Assembly (NCBI GenBank): GCA_020630975.1 | Contig: JAHDID010000013.1 | Coordinates: 1 to 64,000, forward strand | DNA length: 64,000 nt | Origin: Verrucomicrobiota bacterium | GTDB taxonomy: Bacteria; Verrucomicrobiota; Verrucomicrobiia; Verrucomicrobiales; DEV007 | Reading direction: 5' to 3' | Shown here: positions 4,320-35,915 of the stretch, in pieces | Position numbering within the stretch: position 1 is the stretch's first letter | Layout of the letters: every line of letters starts with the position of its first letter | The notes under the pieces: model-generated | Told to the model about the DNA's origin: nothing | The model's input: only the letters and a program-made list of their open reading frames with translations | Databases searched by the model: none | Translations under genes and position numbers: made by a program

Positions 4320-6950
4320 TCACTTCTTCTTCATCAGATCCGATAGGGCGATCTCTTTTACTAGGTCACGCATCGGGTAGTCTTTTTCTTTTAGCGCATT
4401 CAGGATAGCATCGATATCGTCCTGATCGGCAAAGGAGGCGGTGCGACCTAGAGCGTAGGTGAGCATGGAGGTGGCGAGCTCTTTGGCCAAGGCATCTTGC
4501 CGGTTGAGCAGAGCCTGCTTGAGGCTGCTCACATCGGAAAACTCGGTACCATCAGGCAAGGTGCCACCAGGCTGGATCGGCACATCCTGATCGCCGACTC
4601 GCTCGTGGGTGCGCCAGGCACCGGTCTGATCAAAGTTCTCCAGACCAAAGCCGATCACATCGATCTTTTTGTGGCAGGTAGCGCAGGAGGCTCGCTCCTG
4701 GTGCAGCAGGACCATCTCGCGATTGGTGTGTGGCGTCTCCGATGCTTCGTCGAGCTCGGGCACATTGGGCGGTGGTGGTGGCGGCTTATCGTGCAGCAGC
4801 TTATCGAGCACCATGGCTCCGCGAATGACGGGGGAGGAGCGCTCGCCATTGGAGCCAGATACTAGAAAGTGCGCCTGCGTCATCATACCGCCGCGCGGTG
4901 AATCGGGTGGTAGCTGCATTTTGATGAAATCGGCATTGGTCGAGTCAAAGCCATCGAGCCCGTAGTGATCAGCGAGGATGCCATTGACCACGACGAAGTC
5001 GGAGTCGATCAAATTATTAGCAGGTAGATTCTCTTTGATCAGGGTATGGAAAAACTCGCGCGCCTCTTGCTTGGCAGCTAGACGGAGCTTGCCATTGAAC
5101 TTTGGGTATACCTTTTCGTCGATCGAGATCGCATCGAATCGATCGAACTCTGCCCACTGCGAGATAAATCCATCGCTGAGGGTGCGTGCCTTTTTATCGG
5201 CGAGCATTCGGTCGATCTGTTGAGACAAGATCTTGGGGTCGGATAGCTGGCCTGCATCGGCAGCAGCATATAGCGCCTCATCGGGCGGGCAGCTCCATAG
5301 GTAGTAGGCGAGTCGTATCGCTAGCTCCCGATCTGTCAGTACATCGCTCTCTGGATCGACATACTCAGTCAGGTAAAGAAATTTCGGCGAAGATAGGATG
5401 ATTGCCAAAGGCTCAACGAGAGCCGTTACCACTTTTTTGCCTTCGGCTAGATGGTTTTGATAAACCTCATAGACGGCATCGATGTATTCTGGCTCCGGAG
5501 CTTGGCGGCGAAATACCTCAGTAGCGAATTTTTCCAAAAAGGCTTTCACCTCAGTCCCATCGGTGATCATCGCTGGGCGCTCTTTGGTGATCACCCCATC
5601 TGGGTAAAGTAGCTGTGTGATCTTGGGCGGAGTCTCGGGGTAGTGCGGGCCCTCCATCTTCATCCAGTCGATCCATAGTGCTGCCCAGGCTGGCTCCATC
5701 TTTAGCGGGTCTTCACTTTGGATCGCCTTGCGGTGGAAATCATTACTACCTAGCGGGTAATGCTCTCGAAAATGTAGTTTCTGCGCATCCTTGCCCATCC
5801 GGCCTACTTGAAATCTCACCTCTACCGTCTCTGGCTTTTCTACCGTACCACGCATGCGCACGGTGATCGGTGGGTTGCCCCGATCGTTGATGGCTAGGTG
5901 CTGGCGAGTCAGATCAGGCTGGCCGACCACACCGCCGTGAAATCGAAAGATATACTCACCTCGCGGGTCGAGCATATTCCAGTAGTTTGACCCGCCGTAG
6001 GCTAAACCAGTGAAGTAGGCCCCCTGCTCTAGTTTAGGCAGGGTTAGGTATTTCTTCGGACCACCTAGGTAGATCCACGACTGTTGGCTGTATTGTTTGG
6101 CCGATCCTTTATCGGAAAAGCCCAGCTCCTCGAGTGGCTTGCCTTCTCTCAGGCCTTTGAGTCGTTCTTCATACTTAGCCACGACTTCTTTCGTCCGCCG
6201 GAGAGTGCCAGCGCCGTAGTCTTTGTGCTGAGTTTTGACCCGCCAGTGAGGTGTGGTGCTCCATTTCAGCGCATTGGGGAGAAACTGCCGGGCAAAAGCC
6301 AAGTATTCTTTGAGATCGACGGAGGTGAAGTACTGCTCCTCGCCGACGGTATCGAAACTACTGCTTTCGGCATCTTCAGGGAGTAGAGATTCGGTGATCT
6401 TCAGACCGAATAGGTCATACATAGTGGCCGCGTATTCTCGACGATTGAGACGACGCATCTTGATCTCGCCTCCGTGATCAGTCAGCGCCTGGCGAGCCGA
6501 TAGAAGAGAGTCGGATAGCGTCTCCTGTATCGCTGCTAGCTCGGCATCGCTAGGCTGGGCTTCATCCTCAGGCGGCATGTCGCCTCCGTTTAGCTGATCG
6601 AGCACATCCTGCCAGCGCTGTGCCTGATCAGGATCGGTGATCGTCCAGCTATACTCATCAAATCTCACTTGGCCCTTTTGCTTTTTCGGGCCGTGGCATT
6701 TGACGCAGTATGTCTGTAGGAAGGGCTGTAGATCGCCCTCCGGTAGGGTGACGGTGTGGGCGGGCTCGTTGGCGCTGGCGATACTGCCGAGTATTAGCAG
6801 CACTAGGTATACACTAGCTCGGAGACTCACGCCCAAGGAGGGGCTGCTTTTAGCTGCCCGGCAGGCTGAGCCATTTGCTTCGGCCAAGGTAGCCGGGCAG
6901 CTAAAGGCAGCCCCTCCTTGTGCCTTAGAGTTATGAAACTTTTTCCCCAT
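4320..6950 (-). CDS. DUF1587/DUF1592/DUF1588/DUF1585 planctomycete-type cytochrome protein
   Basis: From the ATG at 6950 the product is about 876 residues. A CVKCH heme motif follows the signal region, then KKQKGQVRFDEY (cytochrome-like PSCyt/DUF1587 start), the conserved MRRLNRREYAATMYDLFG, and a long DUF1592 core. The C-terminal DUF1588/DUF1585 part has a second motif, CATCHKKIDVIGFGLENFD, and ends ALGRTASFADQDDI. Such proteins occur beside DUF1552 proteins in Planctomycetes and Verrucomicrobia and are thought to act in periplasmic oxidation. The ATG lies 5 nt after the DUF1552 stop, so the pair forms an operon. Oddity: residues of about 10-40 are encoded by an in-frame palindromic repeat placed before the hydrophobic signal core (SLRASVYLVLLILGS). 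A GTG at 6830 just after the repeat is an alternative start. Confidence 0.88.
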   Translation of the reverse strand: MGKKFHNSKAQGGAAFSCPATLAEANGSACRAAKSSPSLGVSLRASVYLVLLILGSIASANEPAHTVTLPEGDLQPFLQTYCVKCHGPKKQKGQVRFDEYSWTITDPDQAQRWQDVLDQLNGGDMPPEDEAQPSDAELAAIQETLSDSLLSARQALTDHGGEIKMRRLNRREYAATMYDLFGLKITESLLPEDAESSSFDTVGEEQYFTSVDLKEYLAFARQFLPNALKWSTTPHWRVKTQHKDYGAGTLRRTKEVVAKYEERLKGLREGKPLEELGFSDKGSAKQYSQQSWIYLGGPKKYLTLPKLEQGAYFTGLAYGGSNYWNMLDPRGEYIFRFHGGVVGQPDLTRQHLAINDRGNPPITVRMRGTVEKPETVEVRFQVGRMGKDAQKLHFREHYPLGSNDFHRKAIQSEDPLKMEPAWAALWIDWMKMEGPHYPETPPKITQLLYPDGVITKERPAMITDGTEVKAFLEKFATEVFRRQAPEPEYIDAVYEVYQNHLAEGKKVVTALVEPLAIILSSPKFLYLTEYVDPESDVLTDRELAIRLAYYLWSCPPDEALYAAADAGQLSDPKILSQQIDRMLADKKARTLSDGFISQWAEFDRFDAISIDEKVYPKFNGKLRLAAKQEAREFFHTLIKENLPANNLIDSDFVVVNGILADHYGLDGFDSTNADFIKMQLPPDSPRGGMMTQAHFLVSGSNGERSSPVIRGAMVLDKLLHDKPPPPPPNVPELDEASETPHTNREMVLLHQERASCATCHKKIDVIGFGLENFDQTGAWRTHERVGDQDVPIQPGGTLPDGTEFSDVSSLKQALLNRQDALAKELATSMLTYALGRTASFADQDDIDAILNALKEKDYPMRDLVKEIALSDLMKKK
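6834..6920. repeat. Palindromic element (type II), 87 bp, inside a reading frame
   Basis: This is a full copy with ends CAAGGAGGGGCTGC and GCAGCCCCTCCTTG and a central GGCTGAGCC. Its 87 bp equal 29 codons. It lies between the ATG at 6950 and the hydrophobic core of the signal peptide of the DUF1592-type protein, and the frame stays open through it. It is the same family as 2265-2348. Confidence 0.8.
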
Positions 6951-6955
6951 CGTCT

Positions 6956-8242
6956 CTACCCTTTTACCAGCTGAGGAATATTCCCTGTCGAATGCCCAAA
7001 GGAATCGATATCCATACCCGACTGCTGCATGATGGTTAGCCAATAGTTGGCCAGTGGCGTGTCTTCCTCTGGCAGCACGATGTGTCTACCATGTTTGATA
7101 TCCGGCGCGCCGCCTCCTGATAGGATAGCTGGTAGATTCTTTAGTTCGTGCCCGGAGCGGAGGTTGGTACCATAGCTGACGATGCAGTTGTCGAATAGTC
7201 GGCTGCCATCGGAGTCTTTGGCTTCCTTTAGCCGATCGAGAAAGTGGGCAAACAAACTGGAGCACTTCTGATCGCGTAGCTTCGACGCCGCGATCCTTTC
7301 CTTGGAAAAGCCGTAGTGGCTCAGCGAGTGAGCTCCGAGGCTCATCCCCATACCGGTGAGCAGGTCGCACACTGGCTGGCGGTAGGTGACAAAGCGTGTC
7401 GCATCTGTCTGCAGGGCGACGATGATCATATCGTACATGGCGCGGATGGCTTGCTCGCCTGTGAGCGCCTCGCCTGGGGCGGGGATGTTCGCTTTCGGCT
7501 TGGGCACATCTGCCCACTTTGCCTCGCGCTCTAGGCTTTTCTCGATCTGGCGGACACCGGTGAAATATTCGTCGAGTTTCTCCACGTCGCCCTGGCTGAG
7601 CCGGCGCTTCACTGAGGTGCCATTGATCCGCACCGCATCTAGGATCGAGCGCTGCTCGGCGAGTCGCTTATTGAGTGAGTCTTTGGAGTCGGTGGCATTG
7701 GCGAAAAGGCTATTGAAAAGATCTAGAGGGCGATCGATGCCAGGGATGGGATTTCCCGACTCGTCCCACGAGAGCGATAGCCCTGCTCCGTGGCCGGAGT
7801 TTTGCCCGCCATCCTTCTCCTTGGCAGAGAGGATCAGCGACTGGTAGCGAGTCTCTTTGCCCAGTGCATCGGCCAGCACCTGATCGCAGGAGATGGTATT
7901 GAGCGATTGTTTGGCTGCGCAGGTCAGGTAGGAGACACTGCCGCCATGGGGATCGGTGGCACCGATGTTGGTCAGATTCGACACCATGGTCATATCATCC
8001 AGATGGCGCTGCAGCGGGGCCAATCCCTCGGTCCTGCCGACGTCTGCCAATCGTCCCTCTCCATCGGGGTAGAAAGACTTACTGGTGAAGCCGAAGCCTC
8101 CACCCAAAAAGATCGTGCGCCGTGCTGGAGCCGCAGCAGCAGCCGAAGCACTAGCAAATGACTCCAAAAACGGCACCGCCATCAATGATCCTGTAGCGGT
8201 GCGGAAAAAGGAACGCCGGGAGTGTGAAAGTGTCGTGAACAT
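6956..8242 (-). CDS. DUF1552 family protein, Tat-exported
   Basis: The start at the ATG at 8242 gives about 428 residues beginning MFTTLSHSRRSFFRTATG, a twin-arginine type signal. The mature part shows the DUF1552 hallmarks: RTIFLGGGFGF near the start, NLTNIGATDPHGGS, CDQVLAD, SLSWDESGNPIPGI, QTDATRFVTYRQP and SYGTNLRSGHELKNLPAILSGGG near the end. The family has an alkaline-phosphatase/sulfatase-like flavour but its reaction is unknown. It is nearly always paired with a DUF1592-type cytochrome, as here, where the next gene begins 5 nt downstream. The promoter is probably in the 131-bp divergent gap, which holds a dyad motif at 8301-8318. Confidence 0.88.
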   Translation of the reverse strand: MFTTLSHSRRSFFRTATGSLMAVPFLESFASASAAAAAPARRTIFLGGGFGFTSKSFYPDGEGRLADVGRTEGLAPLQRHLDDMTMVSNLTNIGATDPHGGSVSYLTCAAKQSLNTISCDQVLADALGKETRYQSLILSAKEKDGGQNSGHGAGLSLSWDESGNPIPGIDRPLDLFNSLFANATDSKDSLNKRLAEQRSILDAVRINGTSVKRRLSQGDVEKLDEYFTGVRQIEKSLEREAKWADVPKPKANIPAPGEALTGEQAIRAMYDMIIVALQTDATRFVTYRQPVCDLLTGMGMSLGAHSLSHYGFSKERIAASKLRDQKCSSLFAHFLDRLKEAKDSDGSRLFDNCIVSYGTNLRSGHELKNLPAILSGGGAPDIKHGRHIVLPEEDTPLANYWLTIMQQSGMDIDSFGHSTGNIPQLVKG

Positions 8243-18100: not shown

Positions 18101-20587
18101 TCCGCCACTGGCACCATCGCATTCAATGATGTCGACCTGACTGATGTCCACCTAGCGACTAGTGTGCCCGCGATCGGCAATACCCTAGGCGGCACCCTAT
18201 CTCTAGGTGCCGTGAGCGATAGTGCTACTACTGCACCTGGCACCGTGGGCTGGACCTACACCGTGCCTAATAGTGCTGTGCAATATCTAGCTGCTGGCCA
18301 GACAGTAACCGAGACTTTCACCGTGACGATAGACGACCAGAATGGCGGCACGGTCGATCAGGTCGTAACCATCACCATCACCGGGTCTAACGATGCACCG
18401 ACCATCGTCACCACTACAGATGTGGCAGGAGCCGTGACCGAAAATACTTCAGCCGGTGGCACCCAAACCGACTCAGGTTCTTTCACCATAGCAGATGTCG
18501 ACCTGACGGATATTCAGACAGTAGCGATAACAGGCACACCGACCACCACTCGCGATGGCGGTAGCGGAGCCCTGCTCGGCTCTCTAGTGCCGACAGTGTC
18601 GAACAATACAACCAGCGACGGTGCAGGTCAGATTGATTGGACTTTCTCAGTAGCCAATGCCGATATCGAGTTCCTCAGCGCAGGGCAGATCATCACCCAG
18701 ACCTATACCGTACGAGTCGACGATCAGCAGGGTGGCACAGTCGACCAAGTCGTGACTATCACCATCACCGGCACAGTCGACGCACCGACCATCGTCACCA
18801 CCACAGATGTGGCCGGTGCTGTCACCGAGATAGCTGAGGGCGCTGCAGGCGAAGGTACCACTACCCATACCGATACAGGCTCCTTCACCATTGCCGATGT
18901 CGACCTAGCCGATGTACAGACCGTAGCTGTAGTAGGCACACCTACGACCACACGGAGCGGTGGTAGTGGCGCACTAGTCGGTAGCCTGGTGCCAACGGTA
19001 TCCAATAACACCACCGGCGACGGCGCAGGTCAGATCGATTGGACCTTTTCCGTATCCGATGCGGCGATCGAGTTTCTCAATGCCGGCGAGACCATCACTC
19101 AGACCTACACCGTGCGGGTAGACGATGGCCAGGGTGGCACAGTCGACCAAGTCGTGACTATCACCCTGACAGGCACCAATGATGCCCCCACCATCACCGG
19201 CGACCTCGCCTCTTCTATTACAGGGCAAGGTTCTTCAGTCACCATCGCCGCAGCTGATCTCGGCTATAGCGATCTCGACGCTAGCGATGTGGTGACATTC
19301 CAGGTGACCAACCTAGTCAACGGTAGCGTGCAAGTGAATGGCGTAGATGCCACTAGCTTCACCCCAGCCGATCTCGCGGGCGGGCTAGTTACCTTCCTGC
19401 ACGATGGGTCAAATACCCTATCTGCTGCATTCGACATCGCAGTCGAGGATGGCGATGAAGATGGCTCCACTCCTACTAGCCAGACTTTCACACTGAGCGT
19501 GCTGGATGCAGCCGATCCCAATGTGACCTCCATCACCCGCAGCGCACCTACCCCAGAATTGACCGATAGTGACAGCCTAGTCTTCCAAGTCAGCTTCGAC
19601 GAGCCGGTGACCAATGTGACCGCCGACGATTTTGTGATCTCAGGCGGCACCACAGCTACCATTACTGATATCACTGAGACTTCGCCTGGCTCAGGCATCT
19701 ACCTAGTCACCGTGAGTGGTGGCGATCTTGCAGACTTCGAGGGTACAGTCGGCCTGAGTATCGCAGCGACCAATGACATCGCAGATCTATCGAGTCGCAG
19801 CCTGTCGGCCACACCTCCAGCTACGATAGAAAGCTACACCCTAGACAATGTCGGCCCCGCTCCGACTATCTCTGGCCCAGCGACTGGCTCTACCGAGGAG
19901 GCACTCACTCTCACGATTTCCTTTAGCGAGCCAGTCACCGGCTTTGGTATCGATGACTTGGTAGTGACCAATGGCACCGCCAGCGCCTTAGTCGACAATG
20001 GCGACGGCACCTACACCGTATTGGTTCTACCTACAGACGAAGGTCCATTGACTGTCGACATCGCCACTGGTGCTGCCAATTCGGCTTTGGGCCTACAGCA
20101 GGCTACACTCGCCGCATCTAGCTACACTGCAGAGATCACAGCTGACAATGCCGACGGTATATCCGGTATTTTCGACAGCATCAATTTCCAGATCGCTGGC
20201 ATCGAGTTTGGCATGCGCCCTGAGCCACCTGCAGAGGAAGACGCGAGCCCAGTCTCGTTTCAGCCATTCCTAGTCGGGCGCGATGTCGCGGAGAATACAC
20301 CCGCACATTTCGCCGTATCGTTTGGCCAAGAGCGCAGCTCCTTCATCATCCCTACGGATCGAGACGGCAGTTGGCGTCTCACAGTAGAGGAGATCTTCGC
20401 TCATTCTGACCTGCGAGTGGCAGATGATCTAACCTACTACGATGGCCTATCTATCATCATCGATTGGCTTGATGCCAAAGGCGTCGGTAGGTCCGTGCTT
20501 ATCGAGATCAATATGGACTTCACCGACGGAGCCAGCTCTCCAGCTAGCGCACCTCAAATCATCGCTCGAGTACTGGGCGCCGTCTAA
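12200..20587 (+). CDS. Giant LEPR-XLL surface protein with matrixin-like and adhesin repeats
   Basis: A 2795-residue protein. The N-terminus carries a LEPR-XLL-type motif ([15 protein letters not shown], ~26-40), known in PVC surface proteins. A metzincin-like site [11 protein letters not shown] (~184-194) is followed by a Met-turn-like DVMYGVF; the third ligand would be Asp instead of His. Residues ~230-1080 are Gly/Thr/Ser/Asn-rich beta-solenoid repeats of the autotransporter-associated type ([20 protein letters not shown]). From ~1090 to ~2400 there are many VCBS/cadherin-like repeats with endings such as [15 protein letters not shown]. Two adjacent ~130-residue units share [11 protein letters not shown] and are also close at DNA level. 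Near the end are Ig-like segments ([19 protein letters not shown]). No PEP-CTERM or LPXTG sorting signal was seen. Likely a secreted adhesin or matrix protein. GC-rich hairpin follows the stop. Confidence 0.85.
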
Positions 20588-26690: not shown

Positions 26691-27427
26691 CAAGGAGGGG
26701 CGACGTCTCGTCGCCCAGCAGGCTGCGCCGAAGCATATGGCACGACTAGATGGCTCAGGTAGCCGGGCGACGAGACGTCGCCCCTCCTTGACGCAAGCGG
26801 CTAGCTACTCTCTTTGGATGGGGAACTCACCTTGTCACGCCGTCGTTAAGCCCAAGGAGAGGCTGCTTTTAGCTGCCTGGCTACCTCGACCGAAGCATAC
26901 GGCTCAGCCTGCCAGGCAGCTGAAGGCAGCCTCTCCTTGACGCTCGAAATTTGAAACCTTGGGTAGTCGGCTCAGGTAGCCGGGCGACGGGACGTCGCCC
27001 CTCCTTGACGCAAGCGGCTAGCTACTCTCTTTGGATAGGGAACTCACCTTGTCACGCCGTCGTTAGGCCCAAGGAGAGGCTGCTTTTAGCTGCCTGGCTA
27101 CCTTGGCCGAAGCATATGGCTCAGCCTGCCGGGCAGCTGAAGGCAGCCCCTCCTTGAGGCTCGAAATTTGAAACCTTGGTAGTTGGCTCAGGTAGCCGGG
27201 CGACGGGACGTCGCCCCTCCTTGGCGCAAGCGGCTAGCTACTCTCTTGGGCTGTCGAACTCACCCTGCCGCGCCGTCGTCAGGCCCAAGGAGAGGCTGCT
27301 TTTAGCTGCCTGGCTACCCCGGCCGAAGCATATGGCTCAGCCTGCCAGGCAGCTGAAGGCAGCCTCTCCTTGAGGCTCGAAATTTGAAACCTTGATAAGT
27401 TGGCTCAGATAGCCAGCCGAAGCATCC
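26691..27427. repeat. Array of composite palindromic repeats, period ~216 bp
   Basis: This fills most of an 865-bp gene-free stretch. Two palindromes alternate. Type I has arms CAAGGAGGGGCGACGTC / GACGTCGCCCCTCCTTG. Type II has arms CAAGGAGAGGCTGC / GCAGCCTCTCCTTG. The segment GGCTCAGGTAGCCGGGCGAC recurs at 26752, 26969 and 27185, a period of 216-217 bp. Between palindromes a conserved spacer reads GCAAGCGGCTAGCTAC, and after type II comes CTCGAAATTTGAAACC. Short open frames here are only translations of the repeats. The same composite unit recurs once at 35716-35892. Confidence 0.85.
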
Positions 27428-27438
27428 GGTACAACACC

Positions 27439-29286
27439 CTACGCCCGCAGCTCCCACAGATGCTGCGCCACTTCCGAGATCTGGCTTCGCTTTTGACTAG
27501 TGGGAGGCAAATTATCCCACATCATCTGGCTCATATCCTGCAGCAATGGCCGAGCATCGGCATAGTAACCATGCCCGAGCAAGCCTAGCCCCTTTTTCAT
27601 ATGAGTGGCTCTGATCGTATCGAATACACTGGGTATCACGACTGTCGGCTCATAGTATCCGGCTCGATCACTGTCATTTAGGAACTCAGAGGCTTTCAGG
27701 GCTCTATCCTTACTACTGATATACATCGTCGTCCGGTTCGCCACCTTGCTATAGGCCTGACACTCATTACGGAACTTTTCTAGATCGACATCCGCTGCCG
27801 CGAGAAAGATCTGATCAAACACAGGAGCATCATAGTCATGCTGTAGTTTGTTCACCGCATCCAGCAATAGACGGTTTCCCATGCTATGAGCGATCAGATG
27901 GATTTTATCGACTTCACCAGACACTTCGGCGACAAACTTGCGCAAATATTGGGTCAACGTTCCCGCGCTGCCGAGAGCCGTGTTACTATCGACGAAGTAA
28001 TCCTTGAGCATGCCTTTCGATGGCCACGAGTAAAATGCCATTGGTCCCGGGACTTGTAGATCGAACCCGATTTGAGCCGCGCGCAGCGCCGCACTCTCGA
28101 AGTCAACATTGAACCCGTGGACAAACACCAATGCCATTTTCTGCTCCTGATCATCAAACACATTGACTTGCTCGATCATTGACTGCCAATAGGCCGCATC
28201 GAGCAATCGCTGGATCGAGTCGAAGTGCAGCTTCAAACGATCATCCCCCTTGAACAAGCGCGTCAAAAATTTCGAGCCAATACTCCCCACCTTATGCCCC
28301 TTCGGTATCGACACCTCGCACTTTCCAGTAAACAGCTCCATCGCTCGCTCACCGGTGAAACCCTTGGTCAGATCAGCGCGATCCACGGGCTCGCGATCGG
28401 TGCCAAACCACAGCGGGTACAACCTAGCATCATCATCGCGGTCACTATCAGGAGCGCTGCGGTGGGCCATGGCTTCGGGTGGTTCGAGCCCCACCATTTG
28501 GATCTCGGCGATCGGGCTAGTTTTTCGGGAGAGCTTCGCAGTCACCAGTTTCATCACGTCGGCTGGTAGCTCATGTAGCTCCAGCCTGCCGATCGCCCAC
28601 TCAAAGGCATCTGGCACCGATTCCCCTTTCATCGCGTAGGCACGGTAAAATCCATCGGCAAAGGCTATCGCCACAGGGTCGCCGACCTTTTCGCGCATAC
28701 CTATCACGTAGTTGGCGACTTCTGTGAAGGGATTGGCAGCCGCTTCACTCCAGCAGGCATTGAGCACCACGGCATCCAGCTGCCAATCCTGCAGATGCAT
28801 GAGCTTCGCGATAGCAGCCGCACTGGCTTTGGCCGCTGTGCCATCGTCTTTCTCCAGCAGCAGCTCTCCCCACTCGTCTCCATGCCCGCAGAAATGCACG
28901 ACCCGCGGACGATACAGCAGCAGCCACTTGTCGAGCTGATCCAGCCCGGCGAAGCGTACCTTCACCGTGTGGCCGCCCTCTTGTGCATGGCGCTCGATTG
29001 CCTGGATCTCTTTGTCGAGTTCTAGCTTCTCGGTATCGATCGGGTTGGCCCGTAGCACTAGGATGTCGATCACCTCCACCTTGGGCGGCTGCGGTGGCAG
29101 GTCTCCGGCTTGGATAGCGGCTATGTCGTCGCTCGATAGCAGCGCCTCCAGTCGATCCAGCTGACTTTTGCAGCCGATCAGTTGCATGCGATTGGCCTCA
29201 CCGAGGGCGAGTTTTCGATTTAGCTCATCGTATTCTTCTTTTTTTGCCAGGTAGTTTGCGATACGCTCGCCGCTAGAGTCACTCAT
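27439..29286 (-). CDS. CHAT-like caspase-fold protease fused to DUF900-type alpha/beta hydrolase
   Basis: A 615-residue protein of two domains. Residues ~70-240 resemble a CHAT protease: VIDILVLRANP starts the domain, VVHFCGHGDEWGELLL carries the His (about 135) and AVVLNACWSEAAA the Cys (about 178) of the caspase-like dyad. Residues ~290-600 are a DUF900/COG4782-like hydrolase with LVFVHGFNVDFESAA, FYSWPSKG, the nucleophile elbow LIAHSMGNRLL (Ser about 468) and AAADVD. A short N-terminal helical segment may mediate partner contact. It is divergent from the first NACHT gene with a 60-bp shared promoter region. CHAT proteases are known effectors in bacterial conflict systems; a dual protease-lipase suicide effector is an inference. 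Confidence 0.85.
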   Translation of the reverse strand: MSDSSGERIANYLAKKEEYDELNRKLALGEANRMQLIGCKSQLDRLEALLSSDDIAAIQAGDLPPQPPKVEVIDILVLRANPIDTEKLELDKEIQAIERHAQEGGHTVKVRFAGLDQLDKWLLLYRPRVVHFCGHGDEWGELLLEKDDGTAAKASAAAIAKLMHLQDWQLDAVVLNACWSEAAANPFTEVANYVIGMREKVGDPVAIAFADGFYRAYAMKGESVPDAFEWAIGRLELHELPADVMKLVTAKLSRKTSPIAEIQMVGLEPPEAMAHRSAPDSDRDDDARLYPLWFGTDREPVDRADLTKGFTGERAMELFTGKCEVSIPKGHKVGSIGSKFLTRLFKGDDRLKLHFDSIQRLLDAAYWQSMIEQVNVFDDQEQKMALVFVHGFNVDFESAALRAAQIGFDLQVPGPMAFYSWPSKGMLKDYFVDSNTALGSAGTLTQYLRKFVAEVSGEVDKIHLIAHSMGNRLLLDAVNKLQHDYDAPVFDQIFLAAADVDLEKFRNECQAYSKVANRTTMYISSKDRALKASEFLNDSDRAGYYEPTVVIPSVFDTIRATHMKKGLGLLGHGYYADARPLLQDMSQMMWDNLPPTSQKRSQISEVAQHLWELRA

Positions 29287-29346: not shown

Positions 29347-31929
29347 ATGCCTGCAAAAAACGAGCCCACCGATTACGCCAACCTCAGCCGCGAGGAACTC
29401 ATCGCCATGCTTCAGCAGAATAAGTCAGAGGCCGCACCAGCCGAGCCGAGCCCCTCACAGGAAAAAACTCCCGAGCACGAGCAACTATGGCGAACAGCGG
29501 CAGTCGCTTACCTCCAGTCAATCACCGCAGAGCCCAATGATTACGAGCTAATTATTCCCTACCTAGAGAATCTTCGGCGGGAGCGGCTCAAAGTCGCGCT
29601 CGCTCAGCTCGATACCTGGCAAGCTGTAGCCGACGACGCTACGCGGCTGGAGCTACCGTCCATTTATACAGAGCTACGAGTCAGCTACCAGGAGCGAGAT
29701 GATCGGGAACTTTATTCAGGAGGTATTGGCACTGGTTCTGAAGGGGAGCAGGAAGAAAAGCAAGATATCACAGCTACCGCCTTCGCCTCTCGATTCCATC
29801 GGGCTGTCATCCTAGGCAAGCCCGGTTCCGGCAAGTCGACTTTCACCAACATGCTCGCCTATGCCCTCGCTGGCTCAGCGCTCTGTATGGAAGAGGGGCA
29901 GATAGACGATCTGCTACCCACTTGGTACGAACCACCAGGCAATGTCACCGCGCCTCCTACCACGCAACTCCCGCTATACATCGTACTTCGCGAGTATGCG
30001 GGCAGCGGCCTATCACTCTGGGACTACCTCTCGGAGCAGATCGATAGCGAGCTAAATCCAGGGACCGCCAAAGCTATCGAAAATCTGATTTTCAAAGAAG
30101 GTGGGATCTTATTTCTCGATGGCCTCGATGAAGTGCCCGATGCCAAAGACGCTCGCGATGGCATTCTCACCGCCGTGCAGGGCTTTGCCAAGCGCTTCCC
30201 CAAAGTGCGTCTGGTGGTCACTTCGCGTCCCTACGCCTACGAGGAAAACGATTGGCGACTGGAAGGCGACTTCACCACCACCAAGTTAAAGCCATTCGAT
30301 GAAGGCCAGAGACGAGAGTTCACCACCAAGTGGTTTGCCCATGCCGCCCCGAAAAAAGGCCTCTCCACTAGCGAGGCCGAGACACGTCGCGACAAGCTAA
30401 TCCAGCAGATCGAGAGCCTGCGCCACATCCGCGAGCTAGCAGACGTTCCCCTCATGCTCACGATGATCTGCCTGCTTGATCTGGGCAAGGGAGGCGGCGT
30501 GCCTGAGAATCGCCAGGAGCTCTACTCCAACTGTGTCGATCTACTCCTAGAGATCTGGCAAAAACCCAAGCAGGATGGCCAGAGCCTGCAGCAGTTCATC
30601 GGCGTCACCAAAGATGAGCTGCTGCGCGTCATCGAGAAAGTCGCTTACGACTTCCACTGCAAGCAGGGCGACAATCCAGGGGTAGCCGATATCGACGAGG
30701 CATCGCTCATCCACGCCTTGTATGGTTTAGCAAAGAGCTCAAATAGCGAGGCTAAGTCCGACGATCTCCTCGCCTATCTGCGCGACCGTGCCGGTCTGCT
30801 AAATGACCATGGTGAGCTATACCGCTTTCCCCACCGCACCTTTCAGGAGTATCTAGCAGGCCGATTTCTTTCAGATCAAGACGCCAACACCATCTTCGAC
30901 AAAGTCACCGAAGATGCCAAGGTGAAGTGGCGCGAGCCATTCCTACTCGCTTGCGCCAAGCTGCGCAAAGGTAGCGAGGCAGCCCTCTTCGAGTTGTTTC
31001 AAAATCTCCGCATCCGCTCCCACGAGCAGCATGGCTGTGGCACAGTCCACTGGCGCATCATCGGCCTGATGGTGGAGCTAGTCGACGAGCTAAATCTCAC
31101 CAATATCTGCGTCGGCAATGCCACCCGCGAATCCATTCTTAAAGATCTGCTCAATGATGCCGCAGCCCTGATTGAAGCCAAAGACAATGCACTGACCAAT
31201 GAAGAGCGCTACACCGTAGCCATGGCCCTAGGCCGCATTGGCGATACTCGCCCTGGCGTCGGCTGTGTCGAAGGGGTTCCTGATATCGAATGGGTGCCAG
31301 TAGATGGCGAGTCTTTCGCTATCGCCAAGCACTTGGTGACTCGGCAGCAGTATCGAGCTTTTGTCGAATCCGCCGAGTACCAGAATGCGAGCTGGTGGCG
31401 GGGGCACGATATCGATCCTGATTGGGCAGAAAAAGGCTGGTCAAAAGACTATTGGTCGATCGGCAGTTTACCCATGGCAGATGTCTCGTGGTTTCAGGCC
31501 CATGCATTTTGTCTCTGGCTCGGCGAGAGGCTTGCGCTGCCCATCCAGCTGCCAACTGAGACACAATGGATGAGAACTGCTGCAGGAGAGTGCGGCGATA
31601 CTTATCCTTGGGGTAGTGACGATAATGACATCGATCAGAGGTGTAACATCCGCGGCAGTCTCGATAGTCGAGTGGCTCCAGTCGGCATGTTTCAGCGAGG
31701 TAACCGGATCTATTCGGAAAAAGAAGTCTGTGATTTAGCGGGTAATCTATGGGAGTGGAGTGCCGATTGGAGTGATAGTGATAAAGATGCAAAAGCCCTC
31801 CGTGGCGGGGCTTTCTTCCCCGATACTAGGACTGCCCGGGCCTCGGCGCGCGACTGGTATCTTCCTGACTTCCGTAACTTCAACATCGGTTTTCGTGTAT
31901 TGTCGTCCCCATTCGAAACCAACACCTGA
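29347..31929 (+). CDS. NACHT (STAND) ATPase with C-terminal FGE/C-type-lectin sensor, DGR target
   Basis: An 860-residue protein. The N-terminal ~120 residues are helical and may be an effector-associated domain. NACHT motifs follow: Walker A GKPGSGKST (157-165), Walker B ILFLDGLDE (254-262), RLVVTSRPY, and the winged-helix signature FPHRTFQEYLAG (~494-505). A helical linker leads to an FGE-sulfatase-like C-type-lectin fold from ~640 (VPDIEWVPVDGE, WPTETQW-like LPTETQWMRTAAG, DLAGNLWEWSADW). The usual FGE catalytic Cys is replaced (TARASAR), so it is a binding rather than formylglycine-forming domain. Residues ~818-860 are the variable tail encoded by VR1. Divergent from the CHAT gene, convergent with the second NACHT gene. 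Inferred role: intracellular sensor that activates an effector on ligand binding. Confidence 0.88.
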   Translation: MPAKNEPTDYANLSREELIAMLQQNKSEAAPAEPSPSQEKTPEHEQLWRTAAVAYLQSITAEPNDYELIIPYLENLRRERLKVALAQLDTWQAVADDATRLELPSIYTELRVSYQERDDRELYSGGIGTGSEGEQEEKQDITATAFASRFHRAVILGKPGSGKSTFTNMLAYALAGSALCMEEGQIDDLLPTWYEPPGNVTAPPTTQLPLYIVLREYAGSGLSLWDYLSEQIDSELNPGTAKAIENLIFKEGGILFLDGLDEVPDAKDARDGILTAVQGFAKRFPKVRLVVTSRPYAYEENDWRLEGDFTTTKLKPFDEGQRREFTTKWFAHAAPKKGLSTSEAETRRDKLIQQIESLRHIRELADVPLMLTMICLLDLGKGGGVPENRQELYSNCVDLLLEIWQKPKQDGQSLQQFIGVTKDELLRVIEKVAYDFHCKQGDNPGVADIDEASLIHALYGLAKSSNSEAKSDDLLAYLRDRAGLLNDHGELYRFPHRTFQEYLAGRFLSDQDANTIFDKVTEDAKVKWREPFLLACAKLRKGSEAALFELFQNLRIRSHEQHGCGTVHWRIIGLMVELVDELNLTNICVGNATRESILKDLLNDAAALIEAKDNALTNEERYTVAMALGRIGDTRPGVGCVEGVPDIEWVPVDGESFAIAKHLVTRQQYRAFVESAEYQNASWWRGHDIDPDWAEKGWSKDYWSIGSLPMADVSWFQAHAFCLWLGERLALPIQLPTETQWMRTAAGECGDTYPWGSDDNDIDQRCNIRGSLDSRVAPVGMFQRGNRIYSEKEVCDLAGNLWEWSADWSDSDKDAKALRGGAFFPDTRTARASARDWYLPDFRNFNIGFRVLSSPFETNT

Positions 31930-31967
31930 ATCCTCTGAACTCTAGGGCGAAGCCCTCGAAATTTTTT
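31796..31967 (+). repeat. DGR-type variable repeat VR1 plus 3' homing region
   Basis: This 172-bp stretch covers the last ~44 codons of the first NACHT gene and 38 bp beyond its stop. It is almost identical to 32668-32838 (reverse strand), whereas the genes diverge immediately upstream of CCCTCCGTGGCGGGG. By eye there are about 21 substitutions in about 40 codons. Seven codons differ only in positions 1-2 and keep a third-base C (e.g. TTC/TAC, GAC/ACC, TTC/GTC), as expected for AAC codons in a template. A-free blocks such as GCCCGGGCCTCGGCGCGC are invariant. After the stop a hairpin AGGGC-GAA-GCCCT (31944-31956) and a T-tract follow, like the hairpin of DGR targets. The T-tract may also terminate transcription. 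Confidence 0.85.
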
Positions 31968-31983
31968 TGCCATTTCGGGTGCT

Positions 31984-32220
31984 TCAATTCTCTTCATCTT
32001 TTTCATCTTTCGAAAGGCGGACCACCTCTGAAAAAATCGCTTCACGTAGACGCCATGTATCCCCATGGCTAGCGTGAGCAGCCCAGCTGACCGCCGACTC
32101 ACGCAAATCATCTAGTGACAACTCCCCTGCTTCGACTTGTCGGATCATTCGGCGATATTTCCTATGAAAGTGCCTTGCTTTTCGATTTTTGATACGGCGA
32201 TGAGTGTTTCTGTGCCATAT
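31984..32220 (-). pseudogene. C-terminal remnant of a DGR-type reverse transcriptase
   Basis: This frame is open from just after a TGA at 32223-32221 to the TGA at 31986-31984: 78 codons. It reads THRRIKNRKARHFHRKYRR, then QVEAGELSLDDLRESAVSW and AAHASHGDTWRLREAIF. This matches the pattern I know from the end of DGR and related group-II-like RTs (THRxL+xxN...F.RR.R......G.......S..SW.GHA.HGDTWRLR..IF). The palm motifs (YADD box) and everything upstream are missing. An ATG at 32148 overlaps the stop of another small frame, so a 54-residue peptide could still be made. It lies on the same strand as the second NACHT gene and downstream of its VR, the usual place for an RT in a DGR cassette. Confidence 0.75.
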
Positions 32221-32408
32221 TCATATCGCCGTTGATCGATCCACTCCCGCCTCCGCGCTAGATGGAAATATAAGCGAATACTAGCTACATAGCCCCCTTC
32301 CGCACGTTTGGTAACTCGCAGATTTTTAATGTCATTTTTCGGTTCGACTTGTCCGACATTGGAGCGCCATAGGGTAACAAAAGTTTCTAGCACCCCGCTG
32401 GGGTGCAT
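32145..32408 (-). CDS. Doubtful small ORF, unknown product
   Basis: An 87-residue frame starts at the ATG at 32408 (a longer 101-residue version starts at 32450 inside a hairpin cluster). It reads VTLWRSNVGQVEPKND, then KRAEGGYVASIRLYFHLAR and EWIDQRRYEYGTETLIAV. I do not recognise it. The stop overlaps the ATG of the RT remnant frame (ATGA). The N-terminal codons derive from the hairpin GCACCCC-GCT-GGGGTGC, so it may be a chance frame through decayed retroelement DNA. It is not an obvious Avd accessory protein. Confidence 0.2.
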   Translation of the reverse strand: MHPSGVLETFVTLWRSNVGQVEPKNDIKNLRVTKRAEGGYVASIRLYFHLARRREWIDQRRYEYGTETLIAVSKIEKQGTFIGNIAE

Positions 32409-32535
32409 TTTCACTTCTGCTCCATCCGGTGGCTGCGCTATGCTTGCCACCGGCTACTATCTTGGAGTCCCTCCGGGACGTGATAGAGCCCTGGAGGGGC
32501 TAAGAGCTGGTAGCCTGGGGTGAAACCCCAGGTCA
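32386..32535. repeat. Cluster of five consecutive hairpins
   Basis: Within 150 bp there are five stems: GCACCCC/GGGGTGC (32390-32406), CCGGTGGC/GCCACCGG (32426-32453), GTCCC/GGGAC (32467-32479), AGCCC/GGGCT (32487-32501) and CCTGGGG/CCCCAGG (32514-32532). No other copy was found in the window. It looks like a structured mobile-type repeat inserted where the body of the RT would be expected. The rest of the 760-bp gap between the two NACHT stops (31930-32689) holds the RT remnant, the doubtful ORF and an unremarkable stretch at 32536-32667. Confidence 0.6.
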
Positions 32536-32667
32536 AATACCTATCTGTAAGACCCCACACTGGAAGGGTGGTAAAAACGTTTGCCCCCTATTTAAGCTCA
32601 AAGGTTCGGGTAAATATCACCATCTCTTTGCGACTATCTGACATGAGGAAAAGATGCCCCCAAATTG

Positions 32668-32838
32668 AAAAAATTTCGAGGGCTTCGCCCTAGAGTTCAG
32701 AGGATTCAGGTATTTTAGCGAATAGGAACGACAATACACGAAAACCGATGCTGATGTTACGGACGTCAGGCGGTTCCCAGGTGCGCGCCGAGGCCCGGGC
32801 AAGCCCAGTAATGTAGTAGAACCCCCCGCCACGGAGGG
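32668..32838 (-). repeat. DGR-type variable repeat VR2 plus 3' homing region
   Basis: This is the reverse-strand counterpart of 31796-31967: 171 bp covering the end of the second NACHT gene and its 3' flank. It contains the same CCCTCCGTGGCGGGG start, the same GCCCGGGCCTCGGCGCGC block, the same GGTTTTCGTGTATTGTCG block and the same hairpin (32679-32691) and T-tract. Variable codons differ from VR1 mainly at first and second positions. A 1-nt indel near the end shifts the frame, so this gene reads through to a TAG inside the hairpin while VR1 stops earlier at a TGA. Confidence 0.85.
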
Positions 32839-35590
32839 TCCGATTTTCCGAGCCTGAGCCCTCTCTCAGCACGGGATACTGCCCCTGTGCCGATGCTGTC
32901 CACTCCCACACATTTCCAGACAGATCCTCAATATTGTGCCCATATTGCCTTCCCAAATCCCCAAAAAGGCCAACAGCAGAAAGGTGATAAATTCCTTGAT
33001 CTATAGTATGACTTCTAGCATTAAGATCGTCTTCATCACCCCATGGATACAATGTGCTCGTCTCGCCCCTAGCGGCGTACTCCCACTCCTCTTCCAGTGG
33101 CAAGCGTATCGAGTGCCCTAGATTCTCCGATAGCCATGCGCAGTATGCATACGCCTCGTGATAGGATATGCCAGTAGCAGGTACATTGCCGACTTGAAAA
33201 AAGCGATCATAGCTGTGATAGCTTGGACCTGAGATTGCCTCCTCATCTCTCCACGCCAGCCCTTCGTCGCTCCACCACTTCGACTTCTCATAGTAACCAC
33301 CAGCTTCTACAAAACACTCATACTGAGCAACGGTGATCGGGTGCACCGACAGATGATATGCGGTCTGAATCGTATCACAGACAAATGCCGGTTTTTCACC
33401 TACATAAGCCAGCGCATCGCTCTCGTCAGCCCCCATCCTAAAACCACCGACTGGCGGAGGAATCACCTCTGACCACTGGATATCTGGTAGCCCATCGATC
33501 GTCACGCCCACTCCGGGGCGATCATCGCCCATCAGGCCCAAGCTGATACCGCAATAAATCCGCTCAGGTACCGTTGGCTGCTGCGCCAACATCAGCTCCT
33601 CCAAACGATCTTTGCATCGATCCCACAGATCGGGATCCAGATCACGATCACCAAACTCGGCCAACATCTCGCCAGCGATCTGCAGGGACAGCGTCGTGTC
33701 TTCGTCGGCCAACTTTCGCACCAGCAGGATAAGCTTTGCCCGATCATCCTCACACCACAGCCAACTGACACCGAACAACACCGCTTCGCGCCAAATCTCG
33801 GTCCACTGCTGATAATCCATACAAACTCCTGTGATCGAAAAGCCAGGCTGAGCACACTGATGCTGCACCAGATACCACCCAGCGAGAAACTCGCTATACT
33901 GGCGGTGCGGAAACACAAAGGGCGACCCCTCGCCCTCCATCTGATCGAGCAGTCCTCCCTGCTCCTTGATGAAGACGATCATATTCTCGATCCAGATCTT
34001 TACCGCACTATCGATATCTGGCTGCTCGGCGTAAATCTCAGTCGGCCGACAGAGAACCGCTAAAAACGCCCGCAACTCCTCCTCAGCGATGGCTATGCCT
34101 GTCTCGCTACTCCCTGCGCCAGCAAAACCTCTGGTCAGTCGAAAGACTAAGGAGCCAAGCTCGCGGCGAATGGTATCCAAGTCCAGCACTCCGCGCCCAG
34201 TGATATAACCTCGCTCCCGACACAGCTGCTCAAAGCGGTCGATACCACCCTCTGCGCCACGCGTGCGGCGCTCCTCCCATTTGCCCAGTAGCAGATCGAG
34301 CAACTGACTGAACAAATCGGCCCGCCCACGCGGCAGTCTGCGCTCGGTCGCATGGATGCGGCACATCATGGTCAGCATGAGAGGCGTGGGTGCCAAATCG
34401 GCCAGCGCCGAAATCTGGCCTTCGCTCAAGGCTTTGCGAAAAACGGCTACCAATTCCTCGCCCTCTGTCGGCGTGAGCCAGCGTCGGCTGACTAGCTCGG
34501 TGAACCAACTGTCGATGAATTCATCGATCTCCGCTGGGTCGAAGGGCAGTATCTCGTGTGTCGGCCACCGCGTCTGCTCGCCATCGGCATCGCGCACTGC
34601 CCAAGGGCACTCACCACTGGGGTAAGAGCGCACTCGCGAAGTGACATAGATCGGTAGCCGAGGGTAGCGATCCGCCAACACGGAAATCATCCGGCTAATA
34701 TGCTGGCGGTCGGACCCCGCGATGGGTACCTCGTCGAGACCATCGAACAAAAACACCCCATTGACCTGACCATGCACAATCGGCGCGGCCAGCCATTCTT
34801 TGAATCCCTGAACTAAGCCCGAGTACTTTGGCTCCCACTGCTCCTCTAGGAATTCCCAAAAACACTGATGCAGACTGCTATCGGTAATCTCCGTGGGTCG
34901 ATGCTCTCGAAACCACGGAGCAAAGCGGCGTAGGTAGATGAGCACCGGCACCCCGGGATGAAACGGGCTGCCCTCCTCTGGCGATAGATGCCGGTGGCAC
35001 AGGTAGCGCAGCAGAAAAGTCTTGCCAATGCCTGGCCCGGCAGTGATCACCTGCCGATGCTGCTGACCGAGCAACTCTAACAAGGCACCCGTCTGCTCGC
35101 CAGCGGCCTCGCCTCGCGAAAACTCGGTACCGAGCACACGCCGCCCACGCCGCTGAACGTAGACATTCTCCAAGCGAGGCGGCAGGCTAGTGGAGCAGCT
35201 ATCGCCGCTGCCGAGATTGTGCTCTTTTAGGTAGCGCTCGCGCTCCTGCAAATCGCAGAGATATTCTTTCAGCGTGGCACGGCTGAGCGAATCGGGGAAA
35301 GCAGCCTGACTCTGTAGCTGCTCCAGTAGCGCGACTACGGTATCGATGCCTGGCTCGGCTGAATCGTCCGCTGCGGGCGTGGCGGAGCCGAGTAGGGCTC
35401 CGATGGCTGCGCGAAACATTTGCTCTGCCATCGGCTGGTCGTTTGCAGCATTGTCCACATAGAACTGTGCTTGGGCGAGGATCCGCTCGTCTGCTACGGA
35501 AACTCGCAACCAGGTGATCGCCTCGGTGGAGCCTACTTGGTTTACTTTTTCGATGAAATCGTCAACTAGGCTGGGGTGGTATAGGCTCAT
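32690..35590 (-). CDS. Second NACHT (STAND) ATPase with C-terminal FGE/C-type-lectin sensor, DGR target
   Basis: I prefer the ATG at 35590 (MSLYHPSLVDDFIEKV, about 966 residues); a longer frame starts at 35656. An N-terminal helical region of ~150 residues, unlike that of the first NACHT protein, may be a different effector-associated domain. Walker A AGPGIGKTF is at about 184-192, Walker B VFLFDGLDE at about 279-287 and the winged-helix motif FPHRQYSEFLAG further on. The C-terminal FGE-like lectin domain includes FRMGADESDA, VGNVPATGISYHEAYAYC, LPLEEEWEYAARGE and LSGNVWEWTA; the FGE catalytic Cys is absent (GLARASAR). The last ~48 residues are the variable tail of VR2. Alone on its strand, tail-to-tail with the first NACHT gene. 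It shares the NACHT-lectin layout but is clearly diverged in sequence. Confidence 0.87.
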   Translation of the reverse strand: MSLYHPSLVDDFIEKVNQVGSTEAITWLRVSVADERILAQAQFYVDNAANDQPMAEQMFRAAIGALLGSATPAADDSAEPGIDTVVALLEQLQSQAAFPDSLSRATLKEYLCDLQERERYLKEHNLGSGDSCSTSLPPRLENVYVQRRGRRVLGTEFSRGEAAGEQTGALLELLGQQHRQVITAGPGIGKTFLLRYLCHRHLSPEEGSPFHPGVPVLIYLRRFAPWFREHRPTEITDSSLHQCFWEFLEEQWEPKYSGLVQGFKEWLAAPIVHGQVNGVFLFDGLDEVPIAGSDRQHISRMISVLADRYPRLPIYVTSRVRSYPSGECPWAVRDADGEQTRWPTHEILPFDPAEIDEFIDSWFTELVSRRWLTPTEGEELVAVFRKALSEGQISALADLAPTPLMLTMMCRIHATERRLPRGRADLFSQLLDLLLGKWEERRTRGAEGGIDRFEQLCRERGYITGRGVLDLDTIRRELGSLVFRLTRGFAGAGSSETGIAIAEEELRAFLAVLCRPTEIYAEQPDIDSAVKIWIENMIVFIKEQGGLLDQMEGEGSPFVFPHRQYSEFLAGWYLVQHQCAQPGFSITGVCMDYQQWTEIWREAVLFGVSWLWCEDDRAKLILLVRKLADEDTTLSLQIAGEMLAEFGDRDLDPDLWDRCKDRLEELMLAQQPTVPERIYCGISLGLMGDDRPGVGVTIDGLPDIQWSEVIPPPVGGFRMGADESDALAYVGEKPAFVCDTIQTAYHLSVHPITVAQYECFVEAGGYYEKSKWWSDEGLAWRDEEAISGPSYHSYDRFFQVGNVPATGISYHEAYAYCAWLSENLGHSIRLPLEEEWEYAARGETSTLYPWGDEDDLNARSHTIDQGIYHLSAVGLFGDLGRQYGHNIEDLSGNVWEWTASAQGQYPVLREGSGSENRTLRGGGFYYITGLARASARTWEPPDVRNISIGFRVLSFLFAKIPESSEL

Positions 35591-35715
35591 GGGTAGATAA
35601 ATGCGTCGAGTGCTGGCTAGGTATACACTGCGATCGCGGGACTGACCAGTCAGCAAGTCTGGCTTTTGGTGGGTTGGGGGGCTTGGTGCGAGAGGGGAGG
35701 TTTACTGGGGTTGAT

Positions 35716-35892
35716 GGCTCAGGTAGCTGGGCGACGGGACGTCGCCCCTCCTTGGCGCAAGCGGCTAGCTACGGGGAACTCACCCTGCCGCGCCGTCGTT
35801 AGGCCCAAGGAGAGGCTGCTTTTAGCTGCCTGGCTACCTCGGCCGAAGCATACGGCTCAGCCTGCCGGGCAGCTGAAAGCAGCCCCTCCTTG
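35716..35892. repeat. Single composite palindromic repeat unit at the far side of the island
   Basis: This copy carries the type I half (GGCTCAGGTAGCTGGGCGAC, then GGGACGTCGCCCCTCCTTGG), the spacer GCAAGCGGCTAGCTAC and a complete type II palindrome ending GCAGCCCCTCCTTGAGGC. It has the same orientation as the units at 26752-27372. It lies between the second NACHT gene and the sulfatase-xylanase stop, so the CHAT-NACHT island is bracketed by direct copies. Confidence 0.85.
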
Positions 35893-35915
35893 AGGCTTGA
35901 AATTTGAAACCCTAC

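Follow-up and report, generated by a model that had tools for sequence, protein, structure and literature searches.

A probable decayed DGR with two open FGE-type target genes in the draft genome of a Verrucomicrobiota bacterium

The locus described here lies in a draft genome of 158 contigs that is 95.8% complete, i.e., about 4% of the genome is missing. The term "window" is used below for the whole analysed stretch of 64,000 nucleotides, bases 1–64000 of contig C88 (128,986 bp). Near the middle of the window, two target genes on opposite strands are separated by remains of a reverse transcriptase (RT) and of the accessory gene avd. The following features were annotated:

29347–31929, plus strand: target gene 1, NACHT and C-terminal FGE-sulfatase domains, 860 aa (Pfam: FGE-sulfatase 9e-32, NACHT 1.2e-12)
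31798–31905, plus strand: core of the variable repeat VR1, 36 codons (alignment with VR2)
31944–31968, plus strand: hairpin AGGGC-GAA-GCCCT (31944–31956, 5-bp stem) and then a T-run, after VR1 (sequence and hairpin scan)
31984–32220, minus strand: C-terminal RT remnant including the stop codon (phrog_1423, E = 1.7e-11)
32202–32288, minus strand: C-terminal avd remnant, last helices (profile positions 71–99 of 113)
32287–32581, strand not assigned: MITE-like dispersed repeat, copy cut on one side (at least eight other copies in the genome)
32591–32644, minus strand: probable avd N-terminus, MSDSRKEMVIFTRTFELK (profile positions 3–17; weak alone)
32679–32691, minus strand: hairpin AGGGC-GAA-GCCCT and then a T-run, after VR2 (hairpin scan)
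32729–32836, minus strand (read 32836–32729): core of the variable repeat VR2, 36 codons (alignment with VR1)
32690–35656, minus strand: target gene 2, NACHT-like and C-terminal FGE-sulfatase domains, 988 aa (Pfam: FGE-sulfatase 3.4e-40)

Both target frames are open, and the Pfam FGE-sulfatase matches in both genes predict the FGE or C-type-lectin-type end of a DGR target. The NACHT match of target gene 2 (Pfam, 5.8e-4) reaches 20.2 bits, which is below the Pfam cut-off of 26.7. STAND proteins with FGE domains have been described as DGR targets (PMC10907252 and probably also PMC7159879).

The two genes carry variable repeats (VRs) that proved to be real. VR1 and VR2 are inverted repeats with 83% complementarity over 120 nt and 98% over 47 nt. 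Their cores differ by 19 nucleotides, with 8, 8 and 3 differences at codon positions 1, 2 and 3; 12 of the 36 codons are changed, none of them synonymously. Since the template repeat (TR) of this locus is missing, the differences were compared with the TRs of relatives, and in this indirect comparison they display the pattern of mutagenic retrohoming. In the TR of L065, an intact DGR of the same genus, 14 codons encode Asn, and 11 of the 12 changed codons coincide with these (P = 6.5e-6). The corresponding overlap with the Asn codons of the TRs of L064, L066 and L067 has P = 1.4e-6, 1.0e-4 and 3.7e-4, respectively. One of the 12 changed codons lies off the Asn positions of the L065 TR, and three of the 19 differences occupy third positions. 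The substitutions would be of adenine origin, and the most likely source of the pattern is mutagenic retrohoming with a TR since lost.

The same hairpin, AGGGC-GAA-GCCCT, stands 3′ of both VR1 and VR2 and is followed by CGAAATTTTTT. L064 and L065 have hairpins of this plan (3-nt loop, T-run) after their VRs, and in L066 and L067 such hairpins occur further downstream. Among 31 VRs hand-picked from our set of 87 loci, 22 are followed within 120 nt by a GC-rich hairpin of 6 bp or more, versus 11% of 1550 random stretches, and nine have none (including those of L088, L115, L124, L125 and L143). A hairpin together with a T-run was found in 6 of the 31 cases versus 0.6% of random stretches. Hairpins of phage DGRs have stems of 7–10 bp and a consensus 4-nt loop GRNA (PMC3240598), and the 5-bp stem in the window is shorter. 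The 47-nt hairpin regions of the window show no excess of folding over shuffled sequences, with 35 of 200 and 33 of 200 shuffles folding equally well. Loops of 3 nt, such as GAA, GGA or GCA, are frequent in the hairpins that follow cellular VRs (L091–L094, L118, L120, L126, L136, L144 and the window).

The frame between the VRs is on the minus strand (32220–31987 with the stop codon at 31984–31986; its end reads ...NTHRRIKNRKARHFHRKYRRMIRQVEAGELSLDDLRESAVSWAAHASHGDTWRLREAIFSEVVRLSKDEKDEEN*) and lies 3′ of VR2 in the same direction, as had been stated. This 78-residue frame had been proposed to be the C-terminal remnant of an RT. The PHROGs match, RTs of phages and plasmids, and homologues in the order agree with this identity. 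The profile search suggested as a check assigned the frame to "Reverse transcriptase" phrog_1423 (E = 1.7e-11, profile positions 378–446 of 1040); the Pfam search matched no family, and the NCBIfam search gave a chance-level match at most (E = 0.16). By tblastn the remnant matches six phage records, three of which are annotated as RT or RNA-directed DNA polymerase, and 11 plasmid records, nine of them with such an annotation (best E = 2e-7 in both sets). A scan of viral contigs confirmed nothing with the single remnant as a query and gave eight loci with the alignment as a query.

A profile of DGR-type RTs was additionally compared with 2582 frames of the window. The remnant has E = 2.8e-14, the next window frame 6.8, and the best reversed frame 2.8. 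This profile is composed of 79 RTs, largely from loci retrieved with the remnant's own alignment; the independent support for the identity of the remnant is the PHROGs match and the phage and plasmid tblastn searches. The matched profile positions 285–343 of 343 map to 32032–32208, and the remnant corresponds to the C-terminal 60–75 residues or so of a DGR RT. Positions 1–284 are absent. The palm and YxDD motifs are gone from the frame, in line with the earlier reading, and the SQ motif is absent too, so the locus has no complete DGR-type RT (SQ in motif 4, YxDD). The remnant is about 32 kb from the contig end and is not cut by the contig edge.

Among the 385 other genomes of the order, nine contain homologues of the remnant (10 of 386 if its own genome is counted). 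Seven of the nine are full-length RT frames with GLPIGNLTSQ and YVDD; of the other two, L043 (the same locus as L111) is without the middle of the RT and L044 (the same locus as L107) is a tail alone, close to a contig end. The SQ motif marks DGR RTs (PMC3521204). At least four of the seven full-length relatives have a TR beside them. The remnant belongs to the DGR RT family rather than to group II. Thus the DGR part of the former label "DGR/group-II-like" stands and the group II part falls, given that the full-length relatives carry GLPIGNLTSQ.

It had also been suggested to inspect related genomes for an intact counterpart of the locus. In homologous loci the frame forms the last part of a complete DGR RT that has avd and a TR in its vicinity; a strictly orthologous intact locus was not found among them, the closest RT tails being 45–46% identical. 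The search for orthologous DNA in the genus matched 4 of 33 genomes, namely the own genome and three that match solely inside the MITE-like dispersed repeat. The intact same-genus DGRs L064 (G031, record CAJXQE010000118.1) and L065 (G028) resemble the window in the order of VR, hairpin plus T-run, avd and RT, and their VRs likewise read LRGG...IGFRV. They differ from the window in having a complete RT (363-aa frame) and a TR after it, and their RT tails are just 30–32% identical to the remnant.

The accessory gene avd, which was missed in the original prediction, is also present and broken. Its C-terminal piece is the best of the 2582 window frames against a profile of 85 avd sequences (E = 0.018; second frame 1.6; best reversed frame 5.1). 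None of 2000 shuffled peptides reaches its score, and a search of the local region gives E = 4.7e-4. In L064 and L065, avd occupies the stretch just upstream of the RT, matching the position of this piece. The tblastn matches of the piece are weak (E = 0.003 against L065 and 0.10 against L064); avd of the remaining tested loci was not matched, and neither the Pfam nor the PHROGs search gave a match. The MSDSRKEMVIFTRTFELK piece is not significant alone (E = 58 among the window frames, with 1 of 2000 shuffles scoring equally high); it has the right place, order and strand for the start of avd, and 32591–32644 is probably that start. About positions 18–70 and 100–113 of the profile are missing, so avd is not intact.

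A copy of a dispersed repeat sits between the two avd pieces. This 295-bp sequence, adjoining the C-terminal piece, has at least eight further copies in the genome with 81–88% identity (9 of 71 candidates were scored). Five copies (among L051–L058) measure about 565 bp, with ends that nearly match in inverted orientation, a feature that makes such repeats MITE-like; three share mainly the inner core. At its other end, at about 32205, the C-terminal avd piece adjoins the remains of the RT. Fusion of avd and RT into one micro-protein was considered and ruled out, because the two pieces are in different frames.

We searched the own genome for a TR and for an RT that could serve the locus. In the 95.8% complete assembly, a 371-bp query over VR1 finds VR1 and VR2 only, and a pattern search for the 3′ end of the VRs, allowing three mismatches at most, finds the same two places and no TR; no second copy of the window DGR was found there either. 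At E ≤ 10 the remnant matches, within its genome, only itself and the RT of a DGR on contig C142 (38% identity over 53 residues, E = 0.055). There are six RVT_1 matches in the genome, and by motif just the one on C142 (340 aa, GLPIGSLCSQ) is a DGR RT. RT frames that we take, by motif, to be group II-like exist in the genome too. One of them, the fragment C70:29918–30205, was tried as the missing half of the window RT and rejected, since its frame is presumably group II-like by the same motifs.

The DGR on C142 (L019, 5839–11303) is of another type. It has an HRDC-domain gene upstream of the RT, two target genes that are FGE-like in look, and its own TR after the RT, with 16 of 20 and 9 of 17 mismatches to its two VRs at TR adenines. 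This TR shows no similarity to the window VRs. For this reason, and in view of the RT match of E = 0.055, the C142 DGR was rejected as a trans driver of the window targets.

We are fairly confident that the locus is a decayed DGR, with avd and the RT broken, the TR missing and the two targets intact. It is filed as a degenerate DGR, not a functional one. The proposal that the RT core was deleted after homing is supported. Neither of its two refuting conditions came true, as the frame has an RT profile match and its homologues belong to full DGR RTs; the catalytic core is absent, and no TR was found in the assembly. The ancestor would have had target gene 2 with VR2, a hairpin, avd and the RT on the minus strand, as well as an inverted second target with VR1, and a TR. 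Error-prone copying of the TR by the RT would have altered its adenines, and replacement of the VRs by the cDNA would have left the pattern seen in VR1 and VR2. Later a MITE-like repeat may have come into avd, with about 50 avd codons being lost; a deletion would have brought the end of avd next to the final 60 or so RT codons, and the TR may have been lost in the same event or in another. The order of these events is our reconstruction.

The position of the TR varies among DGRs. Across the 87 loci, 73 have avd, 61 have an adenine-biased TR near the RT, and 57 have both; the gene order in these 57 is avd-RT-TR in 29, RT-avd-TR in 13, avd-TR-RT in 11 and TR-RT-avd in four. If the ancestor had the order avd-TR-RT, one deletion would account for the loss of both the TR and the RT core. 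If it had the order avd-RT-TR, as in L064 and L065, target gene 1 would now lie inverted at the former TR site.

The targets had been predicted to be either frozen or dependent on a trans-acting RT. As the locus lacks machinery of its own and the assembly shows no TR that fits, both targets are most likely fixed variants in this genome. Dependence on a trans-acting RT is unlikely within the assembly, where neither a matching TR nor a paralogous RT was found; the missing 4% or so of the genome or other cells of the population could differ. An intact copy outside the assembly acting in trans, or an intact locus in other cells, would mean that the targets are still being diversified. The 95.8% completeness in 158 contigs leaves room for such a copy, both target genes have open frames and retain their hairpins, and two other genomes pair deleted cores with intact homologous copies. 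Coexisting intact variants and trans diversification are described for Thiohalocapsa PB-PSB1 (PMC10907252). We nevertheless regard ongoing diversification as unlikely: the assembly yields neither the TR nor the paralogous RT, and the sole other DGR has a TR of no similarity to the window VRs.

The preferred reading of a decayed DGR has two further competitors. The assembly could be wrong, an intact DGR having been collapsed, or joined wrongly, at the near-identical VR/TR repeats or within the dispersed one. The genome is a draft in which VR1 and VR2 form inverted near-repeats and eight or more other copies of the dispersed repeat occur. However, the avd pieces flank this repeat in the correct order and strand, the avd-RT junction is outside all repeats found, and similar internal deletions are seen in further assemblies, including a record with the title of a chromosome (OX638294.1); such an artefact is very unlikely. 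We judge it extremely unlikely that the remnant is the tail of a group II intron or retron RT and that the VR similarity reflects ordinary duplication or gene conversion. Pfam and NCBIfam give the remnant no name, and RT frames that we assume from motifs to be group II-like do exist in the genome, but none of these is matched by the remnant at E ≤ 10. Moreover, all seven full-length relatives in the order have the DGR-type SQ motif, with TRs beside at least four, nor would gene conversion direct the changes to TR-Asn positions with zero synonymous change.

Degenerate, MITE-invaded DGR loci with surviving targets have been published, so the decayed DGR of the window is of a kind already known (PMC10907252). 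In Thiohalocapsa PB-PSB1, degenerate loci have MITE-like arrays in place of the RT or TR; DGRs 3, 4, 5 and 7 have surviving STAND/C-type-lectin targets like the window, and DGR 7, also like the window, has no TR match elsewhere in the genome (PMC10907252). In the PB-PSB1 loci the RT or TR is replaced or interrupted by MITE-like repeats or transposons, and read data show diversity and coexisting intact variants (PMC10907252). In the window, analysed as an assembly, the RT core is deleted and the repeat sits in avd. The DiGReF survey includes DGRs that resemble the window in having a broken RT, there by insertion, nonsense or frameshift mutation; these keep intact VR/TR repeats, whereas no TR was found for the window (PMC3521204). 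A literature search found no published account tied to this locus. Here a hypermutation system over immune-like NACHT-FGE proteins appears to have been switched off and the proteins kept. The locus is a concrete place to ask whether targets become fixed once a good variant has arisen, as has been suggested for cyanobacteria (PMC7517822).

Deleted cores were also found at other loci. Of the 87 loci, we examined the 12 with short or motif-less RT frames, leaving out L089, L095 and L153, where the frame starts at a contig edge; the query was the RT tail, and loci that lost the tail cannot appear. Five of the 12 (L111, L119, L121, L142 and L143) keep pieces from both sides of the missing avd/RT middle, and seven keep the 3′ part only. 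Two genomes contain an intact homologous copy as well: L143 (deleted core at 7893–8096) is accompanied by L124, and L119 (7365–8168) by L098, the latter two on one chromosome record. The flanks of L124 and L143 are 94–95% identical, and each TR fits the other's VR, with adenines of the TR at 21 of 23 and 20 of 22 mismatches. The five loci without the avd/RT middle are possibly non-autonomous DGRs. It is doubtful, but conceivable, that avd-RT core deletion is a recurrent route to non-autonomous DGRs that keep their targets, and often the TR, and depend on an intact homologous copy as MITEs depend on transposases; the window would then be an end stage that is also without the TR, in which selection maintains the two targets as a fixed pair of receptors. 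If cores with deletions that have an intact copy beside them do work in trans, DGRs would have non-autonomous forms; if they are not used in trans, the window is an ordinary decayed cassette.

The gene beside target gene 1 (27439–29286, minus strand) has CHAT (1.2e-8) and DUF900 hydrolase (9.5e-40) domains and may act as an effector for the NACHT-FGE pair. A second dispersed repeat flanks the cassette of this gene and the two targets, in the same orientation on both sides (26747–27420 and 35705–35911). Shorter copies of it are present in the window at 6834–6925 and 2265–2351, and also in L021 at 19611–19698.
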